A program made the translations under genes and the position numbers. DNA of 64,000 nt, taken from Planctomycetota bacterium (GTDB taxonomy: Bacteria > Planctomycetota > Phycisphaerae > Tepidisphaerales > Tepidisphaeraceae). Position 1 is the first letter of the stretch. Each line of letters opens with the position of its first letter. Under the pieces are notes generated by a model, which saw nothing but the letters and a program-made list of their open reading frames with translations, had not been told where the DNA came from and ran no database searches. The stretch lies in assembly GCA_039182125.1 (NCBI GenBank), contig JBCDCH010000012.1, positions 1 to 64,000 of the forward strand, in the 5' to 3' direction. Positions 12,419-64,000 of this stretch are shown here, one piece after another.

Positions 12419-15376
12419 CTATTCCAGTTCCGTGACCCAGCGGAGGCCGCCTGCGAGGTGGTCGAGGAAGTCACGTTCACTGAACGATTCGACGGTGTGG
12501 CCGCCGCCGGTGTACCACGCCCGGCCGCCGTCGTACTCGTGGTACCAGGCGATCGGGTGGTACTCGCCCATGTCGCCGCCCTCGTAGCTCGTTTCGTCGA
12601 GTGTCATCAGCACGTTCAACCCGTCGTGCATGTTCTTGAAGTTGTACCACTCGTCGGTCCGCTCCCAGGTTTCGTTGAGGTGTAGGGTCGACGGGTGGGT
12701 GCGATCGATGACGTGAATGGTGGCGGGCTGGACTTTCGGATGGCCGGCGAACTGACCTCCGACGAGTTGGCGGTACCAGTCCCAGTCGTACTCGGTGTCG
12801 GTGGCGGAGTGGATGCCCATGAATCCGCCGCCGCCCCGGATAAACGCCTCAAACTGTGCTTGTTCGTCGTCGTTCAGGATGTCGCCGGTGGTGTTGAAAA
12901 ATATCACCGCGTCGAACGATTCGAGGACACCCTCGCGGAACAGCGGTTCGCTGTCGTTGACGTGAAGCACGTCGATGCCGTTGTCCTGGCAAAGACGTTT
13001 GAGTGCTTTGACGCCTTCCGCGATGTTGTCGTGTCGGAAGCCTTTCGTTTCGGTGAGGATGGCGACGCGGGTGATTCTGTCCTCCAGTGCTTTGTAGGGT
13101 TGGCCGGGTATCTGGTTCATCGTGTACCACGCCTCGGGCGACCAGAGCTTTTGGCCGGCGACGCTGGTCAGATCGGCGCGAAGGTGGATGACGCGGTGGT
13201 GTTGCATGCCGTCGAGCGCGAGGCGGACGCTCATGCCGTCATCGGCAGGGGTGGCGGTGACGAGCAGACGTTGCAGCCCGAACTTGCGTCCGCCGTACTC
13301 GGCGGTGGGGCGGTAGTACCATTGCTGCACGGTGTAGTTCGTCGAGTCGGCGAGAGCTTCGGGCGCGACCGGTTCGGTGAATCGAACCTCCAATCCGTCA
13401 GGCGTGGCGGAGACGGTGTGGATCTCGAACGCCGTTTCACCGGTCGGATCCAGGCGCTGCATGCCTTGCTGTGTGCGCTTCCATGACCAGCTCAGACGTT
13501 CACCGATACCGCCGACGTAGATGCTTCCGTTCTCGCCGAGCGCGAGGCGATTGAGTCCAACTTCGAAGCCTTGGCTGTGACGCAGCGCGACGCCTTGGTA
13601 CACACCGTTGACCTCTTCGAGCACGACCCGCCGCAGGCCGCCCATCTTCACGTCGCTGACCAAAAGATGGCCGGCGAACGGACCATCTTGCAAAGTGATC
13701 GCGCCCGACGGGGAGTTGGCGATCTCGCCGTTGACCAGATGCACCGCCGCTGGCGTCGGGGTCTTGTCCGCGAAGTCCGACGGGGCTGATCCTTCGGGGT
13801 AAAGGTCGGTGATGTAGTTGCCGTTGTAGTGACCGTAGAAATGCCCGTCACGGATGTGATTGACCTTGTTCGACGGCATCCATGTGCCTTGGTTTTCGCA
13901 GACGAAGATCTGACCGTCGTGTACGAAGAAACCGTTGGGCGTGCGGAGGCCGCCGGCGATCCAGTCGATGCCACCGGTGTCGAGGTTGATCTTCATCACG
14001 CTGCCGCGGTGGGGGCCGTTGGCCCCGATGCCGAACGTCGCCCACTGGCTGATCTTGTGCGGCTCGAAGCCGACCGCCACCGACAGGCCCGCGTACAGGT
14101 GTCCGTCGTGATACACCGGGCCGAACGTGAAGTGGTGGTAGTTGTCGCTCTTCCAACCGTCGGCGATAACCTCGCGGGTTTCGTAGGTGCCGTCGGCATC
14201 GGTGTCGGCGAGTTTGACGATCGCGTCGCGGTCGGCGACGTAGAGGGCACCGTCGTGATACAGCACGCCCAGCGGGTTGACGAAGCCGTCGGCGATCTCG
14301 CGGACGCTGACCTCGATCGCGTTGGGCTCGACACCGTCAGCGTTCTTGTTCTTGTCTGCTTCCTCGCGTTGTTGAAGTTGCTCCGCGAGAAGTGCTTCGA
14401 GCTTCGCATCGTCCTCAGCCGTGCGCCACAGGTCGGTCGCCTCGAAGTCGACCGTGGACGGCAGGTAGATGTCGGCCGATCGGTCAACGCCTTCGAGGAG
14501 GTAGAGCTTGCCGTTGGGGCCGTCTAGCACGGGGCCGGCGTTGCGGGGGTTGAACACCGCCACGGCCATCTTGCCGCCGCCGAGGTACGCCATGCCGGCG
14601 ACCTTCGGCTCATACGCCTCGGGAAAAGTCTCCCGCGTGAACGGCGTGGTGATCGTGGTGAGTTTCCACATCGGATGCAGTGCGACGAGCGGTCGGCCGT
14701 CGCCGGGCTCGGGCAATCGGCCGGCCGGCACCATCCGCTTGGGGCCGGGCGAAACCACACGGGTCAGTCCGGCTTCGGTGCGAAAGCGCTGCGACGGGAT
14801 GGGCACGAAGCTTTTGCTGCTTGGCGGCTGCCACTTCAAGATCAAACCTTGCCCGCCGCCGGCCTGGAAGTACGACACCCGCAGTGGATGCGCCCCCGCT
14901 TGCAGCGCCACGGCACCGACCTTGCTCTCCATCGCGTGGGCAAAGCCTTGGTCGATGATCGTCTCTCCGTTGATCGTTAGGCGCGAGCCGTCGTCGCTGG
15001 TGAGAAGAAACTGATAGTCGCCGGGCTCGTCGATCAGGAGCTGCGCGGTGAACTCGGCAAGATAGAACTGGTCGTATCCGCCAACACCCTTGCCGTCGAT
15101 CGCGATCGTGTCGGTGACGATGCTGACGTTGGGCGTTTGCCCCTCGAGCAGGATCGGCAAGTACGCCCACGTGTCTTCGTCCGCGACCAGTGCGCTGGGG
15201 TCATCGTCCGGGGTCTTGTCGGGCAAACCCTCGAAGATTTCGAGCGAGATGCCGGGCTGAAAATCAACGTCCGGCGCGACCCGATCGTCGTCGATCGACT
15301 GGGCGAGCGCCGCTGTTCCGAGTTGCAACACCATCAACAACGCACAAAGAGTTTTGCAGATCGGCATGCGAGTCAT
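12419..15376 (-). CDS. Exported PA14 / sorbosone-dehydrogenase-like propeller / ThuA protein
   Basis: A 985-residue secreted protein with three parts after a signal peptide (1-25). Residues ~45-200 form a PA14-like domain (DQFYLAEFTAQLLIDEPGDYQFLLTSDDGS, WQPPSSKSFVPIP), often sugar binding. Residues ~225-690 form a propeller resembling the membrane-bound dehydrogenase/L-sorbosone dehydrogenase group (LGVLYHDGALYVADRDAIVKL, GHFYGHYNGNYI). Residues ~765-985 form a ThuA trehalose-utilisation domain (VAILTETKGFRHDNI, GGGFMGIHSATDTEYDWDWY, AWYTGGGHTVESF). There is no CxxCH heme motif. It probably acts on or binds a carbohydrate in the periplasm. Its own unit ends at 12419, and the nearest upstream gene on the same strand is transcribed towards KDPG metabolism. 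Confidence 0.82.
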   Translation of the reverse strand: MTRMPICKTLCALLMVLQLGTAALAQSIDDDRVAPDVDFQPGISLEIFEGLPDKTPDDDPSALVADEDTWAYLPILLEGQTPNVSIVTDTIAIDGKGVGGYDQFYLAEFTAQLLIDEPGDYQFLLTSDDGSRLTINGETIIDQGFAHAMESKVGAVALQAGAHPLRVSYFQAGGGQGLILKWQPPSSKSFVPIPSQRFRTEAGLTRVVSPGPKRMVPAGRLPEPGDGRPLVALHPMWKLTTITTPFTRETFPEAYEPKVAGMAYLGGGKMAVAVFNPRNAGPVLDGPNGKLYLLEGVDRSADIYLPSTVDFEATDLWRTAEDDAKLEALLAEQLQQREEADKNKNADGVEPNAIEVSVREIADGFVNPLGVLYHDGALYVADRDAIVKLADTDADGTYETREVIADGWKSDNYHHFTFGPVYHDGHLYAGLSVAVGFEPHKISQWATFGIGANGPHRGSVMKINLDTGGIDWIAGGLRTPNGFFVHDGQIFVCENQGTWMPSNKVNHIRDGHFYGHYNGNYITDLYPEGSAPSDFADKTPTPAAVHLVNGEIANSPSGAITLQDGPFAGHLLVSDVKMGGLRRVVLEEVNGVYQGVALRHSQGFEVGLNRLALGENGSIYVGGIGERLSWSWKRTQQGMQRLDPTGETAFEIHTVSATPDGLEVRFTEPVAPEALADSTNYTVQQWYYRPTAEYGGRKFGLQRLLVTATPADDGMSVRLALDGMQHHRVIHLRADLTSVAGQKLWSPEAWYTMNQIPGQPYKALEDRITRVAILTETKGFRHDNIAEGVKALKRLCQDNGIDVLHVNDSEPLFREGVLESFDAVIFFNTTGDILNDDEQAQFEAFIRGGGGFMGIHSATDTEYDWDWYRQLVGGQFAGHPKVQPATIHVIDRTHPSTLHLNETWERTDEWYNFKNMHDGLNVLMTLDETSYEGGDMGEYHPIAWYHEYDGGRAWYTGGGHTVESFSERDFLDHLAGGLRWVTELE

Positions 15377-30727: not shown

Positions 30728-33046
30728 TCACGCATCGGCCAAACGGCTTACATCGTGCTCGGCGAGCGCGAGCAAGAGACGTTCACCCGTTGCAGGCAGG
30801 TCGATCCGTGCATTGCTACCGGTCGACGCGATAGCATCCTTCGCCGCGAGCCAGACGCTGAGCCCGAGCAACAACGGCGGCTCGCCGACCGCCTTGCTCC
30901 GCCGCAGCGACACGACGTTATTCGGGTTGTCGAGGAAGCGCACGTTGAGCTCCATCGGCACGTCGCTGATCGCGGGGATCTTGTACGTCGTCGGCGAGTA
31001 GCTCTTGAGCGAGCCGTCGGTGCCGTAGACGAGCTGCTCGGTCGTACACCAACCCATGCCCTGCACGAAGCCGCCGATGACCTGGCCGCGGTCGATGCCG
31101 GGGTTGATGCTCTCGCCGACGTCCATGATCAGGTCGACGCGGTCGACGACCATCTCGCCGGTTAAGCGGTCGATGGTGACCTCGCTGGCGGCAACGCCGT
31201 TGGTGAAGTAGAGGAACGGATGGCCCTTGCCGGTCTCGCGGTTGAAGTCAACGCCGGGCGTGGCGTAGAACCCACGCTCGCCGAGGCTGATGCGTTGCTC
31301 GTAGGCGGCGCGGGCCACATCACCAAATGCAATGCGGCTGTCGGGGCGGCGGGAGTCGATGGCGTGGCCATCGGCGAAGGCGATCGCAGCGGGTTCGGCG
31401 GCGAACCCGTCGTCGGCCTCAGCGAACATCGCTGCGGCGACCGGCTGCAGTCGTTCCCGTAACCGGACACACGCATCCGTCGCCGCGGCACCGTTCAGGT
31501 CCGTTCCCGCACTCGCCGCAGTCGGCGACGTGTTGTTGTTCTTGTCCGTGCTCGTCGCGGTCACCAACACATCGTCGAACGACACGCCGAGTTCATCGGC
31601 AACGATCTGCCGGATGCGCGTGTTGACGCCCTGACCCATCTCGGTCGCGCCGGTGCTGACGATCACGCTGCCGTCGAGGTAGATGTTGACCAGCGCGTTG
31701 GCCTGGTTGAGCGTGCGACGGGTGAACGAGATGCCGAACTTCACCGGCGAGACGGCCAAGCCCTTCACGTGCGTCGGCGACTCGGCGTTGAACCGCTCGA
31801 TCTCGGCCCTGCGGGCGTCGTAGTCGGACTCAGCACGAACGGCGTCGAACAGCTCGGGCAGGACGTTGTTCTGAACGAACATGCCGTAGGGCGTGACGTT
31901 GCGATCGCCTCTGTAAACATTGGCGTTTCGCACGTCGAGCGCGTCGATGCCGAGGTGGCGGGCGATGTCGTGGAGGATGTGCTCGGTCGACGCGACACCC
32001 TGCGGCCCGCCGAAGCCACGGAAGGCCGTGTTGCTCGGCAGGTTGGTCCGACACAGCCGACCGACCACACGCATGTTCGGCAGGTAGTACGCGTTGTCGG
32101 TGTGCAGCATCGCCCGCTCCAGCACGGCAAGCGAGAGGTCCGTGCTACAGCCGGCGTTGGCGAATAGCTCCACATCGAGCGCGGTGATCCGGCCGTCATC
32201 GGTGAAGCCGACGCGGTAGTTCGACTTGAACGGATGACGCTTGCCGGTGTAGCGCATGTCGTCGTCCTTGCCGTAGACGAAGCGAACGGGCTTGCCGGTT
32301 TGCCGCGCGAGCAGTGCCGCCATCATCGCCGGCGGCGCGGCCTGCGTCTCCTTCCCGCCGAACGCCCCGCCCATCCGCTTGCACGTGCAGACGACGTGAT
32401 TGAACGGGATGCCCAGCACCTCGGCGACGAGCATCTGCACCTCGGTCGTGTGCTGGGTCGAGGAGTGGATGTGCATCTGCCGTTGCTCGCCGGGGACGGC
32501 GAGGCAGGCCTGGCTTTCGAGATAGAACTGCTCTTGGCCGCCGATGTCGACGGTGCCTTCGAGGACGTGGCCGGCCTCGGCGAACCCAGCGTCGAGGTCG
32601 CCGCACTGGATGGTGCGCGGCTCGCTCAACCAGCTCTTGGCGGCAATGGCTTCGTCGATCGTCAGGATCGGATCCTCTGCGTCGACCTCCACAATCGCCG
32701 CTGCCACGGCGGCTTCCAGCGCGTCTTGCGTCTCCGCGGCGATCAGCGCGAGGGGTTGCCCGAGAAATGAAATCTCGTCCCGCACGATCAGCCATTCGTC
32801 ATGCAGCACCGGCCCGAACGCAGCCATCTCTGGCAGGTCGACGGCGGTCAGCACCGCGACGACGCCGGGCGTGTTCCGGGCGGCGGTGACGTCCAGTTTG
32901 CATATCGTGCCCTTGGCCACCGGGGCTGGCAGGATGCCGGCGATCAACTCGCCAGCCAACGGTGCCGCGTCATCGATGAACTGCGACTTGCCCGTGACGT
33001 GCGTCACCGCCGAGTCATGCGCGATGTCCTTACCGACGGCCGGCAT
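30728..33046 (-). CDS. xdhB: Xanthine dehydrogenase molybdenum subunit
   Basis: A 772-residue molybdopterin-binding subunit. CKRMGGAFGGKETQAAP (~205-221) and TAFRGFGGPQGV (~305-316) line the cofactor pocket; the Arg in FRGFGG matches the purine-binding arginine. Near the C-terminus SKAVGEPPLLLGLSVW holds the catalytic Glu of AVGEPP. Length and motifs match the XdhB type of Rhodobacter. It oxidises hypoxanthine and xanthine to urate in the cytoplasm together with XdhA. The stop of xdhA and the start of xdhB overlap by one base (TGATG). The chaperone gene xdhC is nearby on the other strand. Confidence 0.95.
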   Translation of the reverse strand: MPAVGKDIAHDSAVTHVTGKSQFIDDAAPLAGELIAGILPAPVAKGTICKLDVTAARNTPGVVAVLTAVDLPEMAAFGPVLHDEWLIVRDEISFLGQPLALIAAETQDALEAAVAAAIVEVDAEDPILTIDEAIAAKSWLSEPRTIQCGDLDAGFAEAGHVLEGTVDIGGQEQFYLESQACLAVPGEQRQMHIHSSTQHTTEVQMLVAEVLGIPFNHVVCTCKRMGGAFGGKETQAAPPAMMAALLARQTGKPVRFVYGKDDDMRYTGKRHPFKSNYRVGFTDDGRITALDVELFANAGCSTDLSLAVLERAMLHTDNAYYLPNMRVVGRLCRTNLPSNTAFRGFGGPQGVASTEHILHDIARHLGIDALDVRNANVYRGDRNVTPYGMFVQNNVLPELFDAVRAESDYDARRAEIERFNAESPTHVKGLAVSPVKFGISFTRRTLNQANALVNIYLDGSVIVSTGATEMGQGVNTRIRQIVADELGVSFDDVLVTATSTDKNNNTSPTAASAGTDLNGAAATDACVRLRERLQPVAAAMFAEADDGFAAEPAAIAFADGHAIDSRRPDSRIAFGDVARAAYEQRISLGERGFYATPGVDFNRETGKGHPFLYFTNGVAASEVTIDRLTGEMVVDRVDLIMDVGESINPGIDRGQVIGGFVQGMGWCTTEQLVYGTDGSLKSYSPTTYKIPAISDVPMELNVRFLDNPNNVVSLRRSKAVGEPPLLLGLSVWLAAKDAIASTGSNARIDLPATGERLLLALAEHDVSRLADA

Positions 33047-42965: not shown

Positions 42966-43880
42966 GTGTTGGAGCTTTTGGACGAGATCGTAACACGGAC
43001 GGCGGCGGGTGAGGTCGTCGGCGTCTGCATGGTCGCGTCGACGCGGGGCAGCACGCCGCAGAAGGCCGGGGCGTTGATGCTCGTGCTCGAAAGCGGCCAG
43101 ACGCTCGGCACGCTCGGCGGTGGCTGCGTCGAGGCCGAGGTCCGCACGCGGGCCCAGGAACTCATGCACCGCCGCGAGAGCAAGACGCTGGAGTTCAAGC
43201 TCGACGGCGACGTCGGCAGCGGCTGGGACGACGGGCTGGTCTGCGGCGGAACGATGCGAATCGCGGTGGAAACGGTGACGGAAGCAGCGGTGTTTCGCAG
43301 TGTTGCGGAGGCGGTGAAGCGCGCCGAGCCGGCAACCCTGACGGTGGTCGACGCCGAGCACACGTTCGAGCCAAGACCGAGCTTGGTGATCGCAGGGGCC
43401 GGGCACGTCGGGCAAGCCCTCGCCGCGATCGCGGGGCCTGCCGGCTTCGACGTCACCGTCGTCGACGACCGCCCGGGCTGTGCAAGTGAGCAACGCTTTC
43501 CCGACGCCACACGCATCGTCGGCGACATCGAGTGCGAACTGCGAGGCCTGCCGATTCACGCCAACACGTTCGTCGTCATCGTCACCCGCGGCCATCGCCA
43601 CGACGCCGACGCCCTCGCCGCAGTCGTCGACAAACCCGCCAAGTACGTCGGACTCATCGGTTCGAAGCGGAAGATCCTCACCATTCTGCGACAACTCCAC
43701 GGCAACGGCGTCGACGCCGACACGCTCGCCAAGGTCCACGCCCCGATCGGGCTGAGCATCGGAGCGATCACGCCTGAAGAAATTGCCATCAGCATCGCCG
43801 CCGAACTCGTCGCCATCCGCCGAGCCCCAACGGACATCGGCCGTCCGCTGAAACTCGATCCCAAGCTCGCAACACGTTAA
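42966..43880 (+). CDS. xdhC: XdhC-family molybdenum-cofactor chaperone
   Basis: A 304-residue protein. The N-terminal XdhC/CoxI domain has CMVASTRGSTPQKAGALMLV and LGTLGGGCVEAEV (the GGGCVE motif). A C-terminal Rossmann domain follows (LVIAGAGHVGQALA ~141-154, IVTRGHRHDADAL, YVGLIGSKRK). XdhC proteins bind, sulfurate and insert the molybdenum cofactor into xanthine dehydrogenase. It starts at a GTG (42966), 72 bases from the divergent ureidoglycine hydrolase gene, so both probably share a control region. It is the only plus-strand gene of the purine cluster. Confidence 0.93.
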   Translation: MLELLDEIVTRTAAGEVVGVCMVASTRGSTPQKAGALMLVLESGQTLGTLGGGCVEAEVRTRAQELMHRRESKTLEFKLDGDVGSGWDDGLVCGGTMRIAVETVTEAAVFRSVAEAVKRAEPATLTVVDAEHTFEPRPSLVIAGAGHVGQALAAIAGPAGFDVTVVDDRPGCASEQRFPDATRIVGDIECELRGLPIHANTFVVIVTRGHRHDADALAAVVDKPAKYVGLIGSKRKILTILRQLHGNGVDADTLAKVHAPIGLSIGAITPEEIAISIAAELVAIRRAPTDIGRPLKLDPKLATR

Positions 43881-43886
43881 CTCAAC

Positions 43887-43918
43887 AAAAACGCCGCTTC
43901 CCGAGGTGGGAAACGGCG
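43887..43918 (-). terminator. Intrinsic terminator downstream of the tRNA-Cys fragment
   Basis: CGCCGCTTCCC (43892-43902) pairs with GGGAAACGGCG (43908-43918) with one C/A mismatch and a 5-base loop. Read on the minus strand it is followed by TTTTTG (43891-43886), so it terminates leftward transcription, as expected for a tRNA gene on the minus strand. It could also stop xdhC transcription from the other side. Confidence 0.7.
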
Positions 43919-43931
43919 AGGATAGGGTCAA

Positions 43932-43977
43932 GGCCGGAGTGGGATTCGAACCCACGAATCACGGATTTGCAATCCGT
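43932..43977 (-). pseudogene. 3' half of a tRNA-Cys(GCA) gene
   Basis: On the minus strand the sequence gives an intact anticodon arm (ACGGA-TTGCAAA-TCCGT, anticodon GCA), a 5-base variable loop, a perfect T arm (GTGGG-TTCGAAT-CCCAC) and the acceptor 3' strand TCCGGCC followed by T, the usual discriminator of tRNA-Cys. The D arm and the acceptor 5' strand (expected GGCCGGA) are missing: upstream sequence on the minus strand, from 43978 rightward, does not fold or pair. The gene is therefore cut between the D arm and the anticodon arm. The retained part is the segment that integrases commonly use as attachment site. Confidence 0.8.
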
Positions 43978-44237
43978 TCCGATGACGGCACAACCGAATA
44001 TGAGTACGAGACTTGTGACAGATTCTGTGTCAAACAGGTCGCGTCGGATGCTGACCTTGCCAAGACTGCCGTGGCGTGGCCGAGCCTCCCGCAGCACATC
44101 CGGACGGTGGTGCTTGTACTCATCGCGACGGTGAAGCCACCGCGATGATCCCGCCAACGACACCGGACAGTTTGACAAGAGCACAGTCCGTCATCGACGC
44201 GATCTCCTTGTGCGCCGTCTCGGCTAAATTGGCAAGT
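43978..44237. other. Gene-free stretch with a strong hairpin
   Basis: I see no credible gene in these 260 bases between the tRNA fragment and the sulfatase gene. CATCGCG-AC-GGTG (44121-44133) pairs with CACCGCGATG (44138-44147), leaving AC bulged and a 4-base loop. No T run follows in either direction. It may stabilise the 3' end of the long minus-strand operon. The translated stretch GVGFEPTNHGFAIRS just left of it is only the tRNA fragment read as protein. Confidence 0.5.
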
Positions 44238-63324: not shown

Positions 63325-64000
63325 TCGATCTCGACATCGCCTGTCGCATTGATCGGGTCGATCCGCAGCCCGGTCAGCGGCGTCTTCGGGTCGATCGACA
63401 CACGGATGCGTTGGTCCACGTCGTAAACGAACCCAATGCGGGCATCGCGGTTGAAGTTCGGCCGATTCGTAGTTGCCAAGTATACATCGCCAACACCGCC
63501 GGCACTCGCTTTGAGCCGAGTCTCAACCACGTGTGGGCCGACCACGGCGGGAACGTCCGTTGCCACGAGGTACGGATCAGGACCGACGCACTCAAGCATT
63601 AGTCGACCGCCCTGCAACTTGCCACGCAGGTGCTTGCGTGTCACCCGGCCGCAGAGCGTTAGCAACGCCGGCTGGTTCTTCGAGAGATCGTTGGTTTCAC
63701 CGATGTCTTCGACCAAGTCATACAGCTCATACCGGTCACCGCCATCGGGCAGGTCGGCGTAGAAACGGATGATCTTGTGATCACCGACGCGCAGGCTGGA
63801 CGACGGCTGATACCCGGACCGCTGCCCCCAGCCGTGCGGGAAATGTACAAAGATCGACCGATCTGCCAGCGGCTCCACGACGTCGCCACCGCGCAAAACC
63901 GGCCCTAAGTCATGTCCGTCGAACGCGACGTCTGCCTCTAAAACCGCGAGACCGATGACCGTTGGGAACACGTCGAGGCTTCCGATCAATTGTGCGCTTT
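63264..64000 (-). CDS. Sulfatase, C-terminal part, continuing beyond the window
   Basis: The open frame runs off the right edge of the window. SAQLIGSLDVFPTVIGLAVLEADVAFDGHDLGPVLRGGD is the C-terminal sulfatase core segment, followed by SIFVHFPHGWGQRSGYQPSSSLRVGDHKIIRFYADLPDGGDRYELYDLVEDIGETNDLSKNQPALL, which is the standard tail of type I sulfatases. An extra ~110-residue beta domain follows. The active-site Cys lies outside the window. It converges on and overlaps the 3' end of the GH78 gene by about 60 bases. Its location fits removal of sulfate esters from the same polymer. Signal peptide and start cannot be judged. Confidence 0.85.
   Translation of the reverse strand, partial: SAQLIGSLDVFPTVIGLAVLEADVAFDGHDLGPVLRGGDVVEPLADRSIFVHFPHGWGQRSGYQPSSSLRVGDHKIIRFYADLPDGGDRYELYDLVEDIGETNDLSKNQPALLTLCGRVTRKHLRGKLQGGRLMLECVGPDPYLVATDVPAVVGPHVVETRLKASAGGVGDVYLATTNRPNFNRDARIGFVYDVDQRIRVSIDPKTPLTGLRIDPINATGDVEIDYVRLLDPDGVLVKAWEFGE

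Follow-up and report, generated by a model that had tools for sequence, protein, structure and literature searches.

A tRNA-Cys gene fragment in the genome of a Planctomycetota bacterium is best explained, with a probability of about 0.88, as the attR of an integrated island, with the adjoining DNA as the severed C-terminus of an integrase whose gene spans attP. The fragment lies in a 64,000-nt stretch of contig C12 (the window, which here means this whole stretch), in a draft genome of 131 contigs and 4.13 Mb (G000). The scar, the three tRNA-Cys copies in this genome, the tail motif beside the scar, the agreement of reading frames in relatives and the unsplit genes in virus-like contigs are direct observations, and the self-splitting arrangement is widespread in Planctomycetota.

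Read directly and folded, the minus strand at window positions 43931-43980 corresponds to the 3'-terminal 50 nt of a tRNA-Cys(GCA) gene, retaining the anticodon arm with GCA, the variable loop, the T arm and the acceptor 3' strand, and lacking the D arm and the acceptor 5' strand. The intrinsic terminator of the one-time gene is also preserved (43892-43918, minus strand), and folds into an 11-pair stem with a 5-nt loop and a T-rich tail. Sequence and folding thus agree with the first-pass annotation, made from the sequence alone, as to which parts of the gene were kept and lost; the fragment that it had placed at 43932-43977 is real, and its ends are corrected to 43931-43980 by the match to tRNA nucleotides 25-74. 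A search of the source genome itself aligned 43930-43980 over 51/51 bp (E 4.4e-20) with an intact tRNA-Cys gene on contig C50 (G000:C50:26924-26997), to which the attR core is 100% identical. A third, degenerate copy, 81% identical, lies at G000:C12:67692-67758, 23.8 kb to the right of the fragment and 3.7 kb past the end of the window. Neither ARAGORN nor Rfam at the gathering threshold called a tRNA in the window; with no sign of an intron, a split form or an intact 5' half, an intact or split tRNA at 43931-43980 was rejected. On C50, a decayed tyrosine integrase reads into the intact tRNA-Cys; on C12, the degenerate copy forms a decayed second scar, with a 1-nt insertion in its core and an island-side flank homologous to that of the fragment. 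The cut falls in the anticodon-stem region, matching relatives. Taken together, the sequences support the earlier proposal of an attachment-site scar, and the fragment is probably the attR of an integrated island.

The first-pass annotation had recognized this scar correctly, and overlooked that the sequence just after it encodes what appears to be a severed integrase C-terminus. An open frame on the plus strand (43852-44148, 98 codons and a stop) runs through the tRNA fragment into this segment, its island-derived part being 43981-44148, and includes at 44044-44142 (plus strand) a conserved tail motif of ~35 residues, L..AWP.LP..IR (fuller pattern D..LA...AWP.LP..IR), matched by the A3 profile with E 7.2e-12. 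The motif has no match in Pfam, NCBIfam or PHROGs. A decayed homologue of the tail accompanies the second scar on C12, placing the motif at both scars. In a genome of the same class (G029), the integrase next to the intact tRNA-Cys terminates in GRSGIRTHDKRICNPP; on another contig, a tRNA-Cys fragment starts with the GRSGIRTHDKRICNPP peptide in the same frame and then runs into the tail motif. The layout and frame of 43852-44148 are repeated in G029 and for 16/17 tails of single-contig genomes. An initial search of 101 relatives gave tail matches in 13 genomes; a 6-row profile found the motif in 192/298 genomes of the class at E<=0.01, and a 33-row profile found it in 30/148 genomes of the phylum at E<=1e-5, 21 of these 30 lying outside the class. 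The tail is common to integrases of several subfamilies with several tRNA targets. When the profile was run against viral contigs, 132 pattern matches were obtained, of which 0 were confirmed.

Pairing of island ends was examined in the listed single-contig genomes, from which every motif match at E<=1e-5 was taken, giving 17 tails in 10 genomes (three other single-contig genomes contain no tail, and 3/17 of the tested tails are also rows of the profile). The T-loop motif TTCGAA was rejected as a general test for a tRNA fragment, being found upstream in only 8/32 tail matches and downstream in 0/32; it fails because many islands leave a 5' half, and the partner tRNA was instead used for a direct comparison. 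For each tail, the island side was scanned over up to 60-150 kb for similarity to the preceding 400 nt. Of the 17 tails, 16 have a direct repeat (18-78 bp) at a distance of 6.2-60.9 kb, the shortest cores being 18, 20 and 23 bp (G013, G263 and G167). In 16/16 islands, the tail frame, when followed across the core, stays open over 414-592 codons upstream, compared with 0-132 codons in the other two frames, and this open region contains the integrase; by chance, frames would agree in one of three cases per island. In 15/16 islands, the far copy of the repeat is an entire tRNA gene oriented as expected, the targets being Arg(tct) and Thr(tgt), twice each, and Arg(cct), Ser(tga), Ser(cga), Lys(ctt), Val(cac), Val(gac), Asn(gtt), Gly(tcc), SeC(tca), Met(cat) and Leu(caa), once each. 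The one tail lacking a partner repeat (G059:3368739) is partial and lies inside another island, and is counted against the preferred reading. Four extra tails were taken from multi-contig genomes; three agree (G184, Lys; G275, Gly; and G092), and the fourth, in G188, lacks a partner over 15 kb of contig, which is likewise counted against. In the source genome, the core of the second scar has a 1-nt insertion, also counted against, and the C50 remnant is frameshifted; pairing of the C50 integrase with either scar by frame was dropped for this reason.

The sixteenth of the paired islands (G295:C1:2472368, L150) is reversed, with tRNA-Ser(tga) on the tail side and a 44-bp partial copy on the integrase side. 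The island in G092 (L106, G092:C3:86900-106800) combines a 71-bp perfect core repeat with a split integrase and a tail, without a tRNA detected by ARAGORN, and its target may be another type of gene. Islands of this class also occupy the unusual target tRNA-SeC(tca), at G167:C1:794013 (L141) and at loci L190, L206 and L209.

Split and whole forms of the gene were compared across an integrase alignment that yielded 80 named genome loci, all named as Planctomycetota groups except one 'Candidatus Zipacnadia'. A tRNA gene stands at the end of the integrase frame in 66 of these (we read 60 as antisense and 6 as sense relative to the integrase), another 8/80 have no tRNA or tail, and 6/80 run to the contig end; integrase and tail share one frame in 0/80. 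Among 60 virus-like loci, the gene is whole in 3, ends at a tRNA in 4, reaches the contig end in 8 and has neither tRNA nor tail in 37, and 8/60 have no integrase frame passing the cut-off. Two further scans (+13 and +47 loci, partly on the same contigs) added one more whole gene (L300), for a total of four virus-like contigs with an unsplit integrase-core-tail ORF; at L305 the tail lies in a separate ORF. Phage-type genes for a primase or helicase, a match resembling a sigma factor, and a small terminase lie next to the whole genes of L243 and L259. The MAG contigs L112 and L114 also carry whole or nearly whole genes (2/8 long ORFs examined). Searches with the whole integrase gave 44 weak partial matches among plasmids, 0 of them covering 80% of the query, and no match among phages. 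In the integrated form, the catalytic domain lies wholly on the attL side: PF00589 is present in 10/10 attL ORFs scanned, whose frames read on into the tRNA and host DNA, and the attL integrases persist with arbitrary new C-termini. Apart from one chance match below the cut-off, domain matches were limited to PF00589 and SAM-like N-terminal domains. At L115 (G109:C39), the integrase frame is fused to the tail and most of the catalytic domain is gone, apparently through an internal deletion.

Estimated by a crude Nei-Gojobori calculation over 68-69 codons, dN/dS was 0.23-0.69 in 10/10 pairs (not independent of one another) of five related tails, and at the sequence level the tail appears to be under purifying selection. 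An AlphaFold2 model of the whole protein of a relative (L259) comprises an integrase body with pLDDT mostly above 90, a disordered linker (residues 383-493), whose DNA holds the core and the arm sites, and a tail hairpin of two helices (495-502 and 509-521) with pLDDT about 84; the motif is thus predicted to form a two-helix hairpin in this relative. The best solved match of the L259 model in Foldseek was lambda integrase (E 1e-10). A candidate integrase arm-type site, TGTGACAGATTCTGTGTCAA, is located at 44014-44033 of the window (plus strand), sharing 16/20 bases with the integrase side on C50 and with the second scar. Besides the core, short direct repeats of ~18-27 bp occur on both sides of the core in most islands, and these repeats, like the candidate arm site, all lie inside the coding frame. 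Four islands of G059:C1, with tails at 32807, 678129, 2572580 and 3326745, carry closely similar tails in four different tRNA genes; the tail at 2572580 is joined to an integrase from a different subfamily, a sign that islands may exchange tails.

In the mechanism that we propose, the integrase gene would hold attP near its 3' end and encode a catalytic domain, a long linker and a conserved helical tail, the linker DNA containing both the tRNA core and the arm-type site. As long as the element is circular, the gene would be whole and the full protein made. Recombination with the tRNA gene would then cut the integrase gene inside the core, so that the catalytic part stays by the restored tRNA with a replacement C-terminus that is read, in antisense, from the tRNA and the host DNA, and the tail is left by the tRNA fragment at the opposite end, as at 43981-44148 of the window. 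Because the same exchange alters the enzyme of the myxophage Mx8, we infer by analogy that the tail may favour integration or restrain excision, and that its removal would make insertion self-limiting. A bolder extension, to which we would give a little under even odds, is that self-splitting integrases of bacteria extend across this phylum, with the hairpin as an exchangeable integration-promoting domain whose loss locks the island until a whole integrase or a compatible tail arrives; were this true, thousands of unannotated small ORFs beside tRNA pieces would be severed tails.

The tail might instead be a by-product of read-through, the integrase frame crossing attP as we propose, with a tail that has no role and an integration event that has no regulatory effect. 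We regard this as unlikely, while giving it real weight: the survival of attL integrases with arbitrary new C-termini speaks for it, and the role of the tail is drawn by analogy from Mx8. It accords poorly, however, with the retention of the motif across the phylum (30/148 genomes at E<=1e-5) and in the class (192/298 at E<=0.01), with the signs of purifying selection on the tail, and with its predicted fold. Far less probable is an ordinary tRNA-targeting scar adjoined by an unrelated small gene or a chance frame that was never part of an integrase. The scar alone would be accounted for in this way, and the tail is a separate small ORF when integrated, but the frames agree in 16/16 testable islands, unsplit single ORFs exist in 4 virus-like contigs and also in the MAG contigs L112 and L114 (2/8 long ORFs), one tail recurs across several integrase subfamilies and tRNA targets, and tail dN/dS is below 1.

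Explanations that dispense with an island altogether are given still lower odds. Duplication or rearrangement of the host tRNA locus could have produced a tRNA-Cys pseudogene beside a native rhamnoside locus, and the uniform base composition across the boundary and the failure to find an empty site are in keeping with this; yet the two scars have homologous island-side flanks and both carry the tail motif, the cut in the anticodon-stem region is the same as in relatives, and an integrase remnant lies at the intact tRNA-Cys copy, all of which make such an origin highly implausible. An assembly artefact at 43978-43980 is the least credible account; the genome is a 131-contig draft, but the open frame crosses the junction unbroken, and the same type of junction recurs in complete single-contig genomes.

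The proposed attP-spanning integrase can be compared with several known systems. The closest functional precedent is intP of myxophage Mx8 (and also Mx9), in which attP lies inside the integrase coding sequence; upon integration, the gene receives a new 3' end, its catalytic part stays by the host site, and the exchange alters the enzyme (PMC6070905). Similarly, attP lies inside the integrase frame in the planctomycete islands (16/16 testable islands of relatives and four unsplit ORFs; the window keeps the tail half only), and the catalytic part is intact after integration with a host-encoded C-terminus gained (10/10 attL ORFs with PF00589). Compared by arrangement, the planctomycete system differs from these individual myxophages in its conserved tail, which is shared phylum-wide by several integrase subfamilies with many tRNA types. 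The SSV-type (type I, 'suicidal') archaeal integrases, whose gene is split by integration into parts at opposite ends of the element (PMC8371274), are the closest in principle and share this division, but fail two tested features: their catalytic domain is in the severed Int(C), whereas here the whole PF00589 domain remains in one piece and a short tail is lost, and they match Pfam PF16795 (Phage_integr_3), for which no match was found here. In the integration-dependent immunity of mycobacteriophage BPs, attP also lies inside a gene, and integration shortens the C-terminus of its protein and in this way switches state (PMC4557955), a likewise altered C-terminus, although the BPs gene encodes a repressor rather than an integrase. 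Islander describes islands bounded by an intact tRNA and a displaced fragment, notes tandem islands, and allows for integrases extending across attP, as in Mx8 and SSV (PMC4383910). The present intact tRNA gene and displaced partial copy (51/51 bp) conform to this pattern; the available text of that paper describes no detached tail motif, whereas here the motif marks the fragment end without needing a tRNA match.

No description of the planctomycete arrangement was found in our literature search, which covered an open-access library. According to a recent review, integrases that disrupt their own gene are confined to archaea (PMC8371274). The planctomycete integrases would be a bacterial counterpart, spanning one phylum and many tRNA isotypes, in which virus-like contigs carry the gene whole and chromosomes carry it split. 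The tail motif provides a simple marker for far island ends in fragmented planctomycete genomes, a large number of odd small ORFs, translated out of pieces of tRNA genes, would be explained as severed tails, and control of direction by a one-shot integrase becomes testable in bacteria.

In the source genome, the chromosomal flank left of the scar carries an xdhC-like gene (42966-43880, plus strand; Pfam XdhC_C 1.4e-43, XdhC_CoxI 8.2e-19). To the right, the cargo of the older island extends from 44149 to the window end at 64000 and on to C12:67691, with Pfam matches to sulfatases, alpha-L-rhamnosidases, a SASA esterase, a peptide-type ABC transporter, a polysaccharide lyase, a LacI regulator and an oxidoreductase between the scars, and no integrase. 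After the second scar, near the end of C12, follows hsdR (L004:8043-11144, equal to C12:68042-71143). On C50, the intact tRNA-Cys comes after a gene of ABC-F type, a name based on its sequence and not on family searching. Past the 3' end of the tRNA, the decayed integrase, hsdM and an AAA_13 gene (the latter two at L005:15341-16108 and 13680-15344) follow until the contig stops; the AAA_13 gene resembles the ATPase of PrrC-type anticodon nucleases. The location between two scars supports placing the rhamnosidase/sulfatase locus inside an old island. GC content is even across the scar boundary (0.62-0.67 on either side), and the comparison of composition proposed in the first-pass annotation thus speaks neither way. 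An empty site was not found: in the loci compared from relatives, a sample with no second genome of the genus, neither xdhC nor the ABC-F gene lies as close as 1.5 kb to tRNA-Cys.

The simplest history would be successive insertion of two islands at the same tRNA-Cys, the older with the rhamnoside locus and the younger with restriction genes, with C12 and C50 as presumed neighbours. No overlap between the ends of the two contigs was found, so that they could not be joined in this way and the fragment and the intact tRNA remain on different contigs, where an integrase-driven tRNA island would have them similarly oriented on one replicon at a distance of 2-200 kb, and hsdS (PF01420, Methylase_S) is absent from the whole draft genome and offers no bridge between them; the missing overlap is counted against the preferred reading, as are the failure to find an empty site, the loss of any integrase from the rhamnoside island and the state of the C50 integrase remnant, which is frameshifted and internally deleted. 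This decayed remnant, which the PF00589 search did not match, is the only integrase at the intact tRNA-Cys, and no integrase remnant was found left of the second scar. A PF00589 search of the genome gave 9 integrase-domain matches, 0 of them on C12 or C50, and the rhamnoside island therefore has no integrase of its own. The earlier suggestion that the rhamnoside locus could be mobile holds as to its position between two scars, but not as to its present state: the locus is a stranded island, not presently mobile. Elsewhere in the genome, at G000:C55:25211-25698 (L127, L128), an integrase domain is divided over two frames, possibly representing a frameshifted copy.
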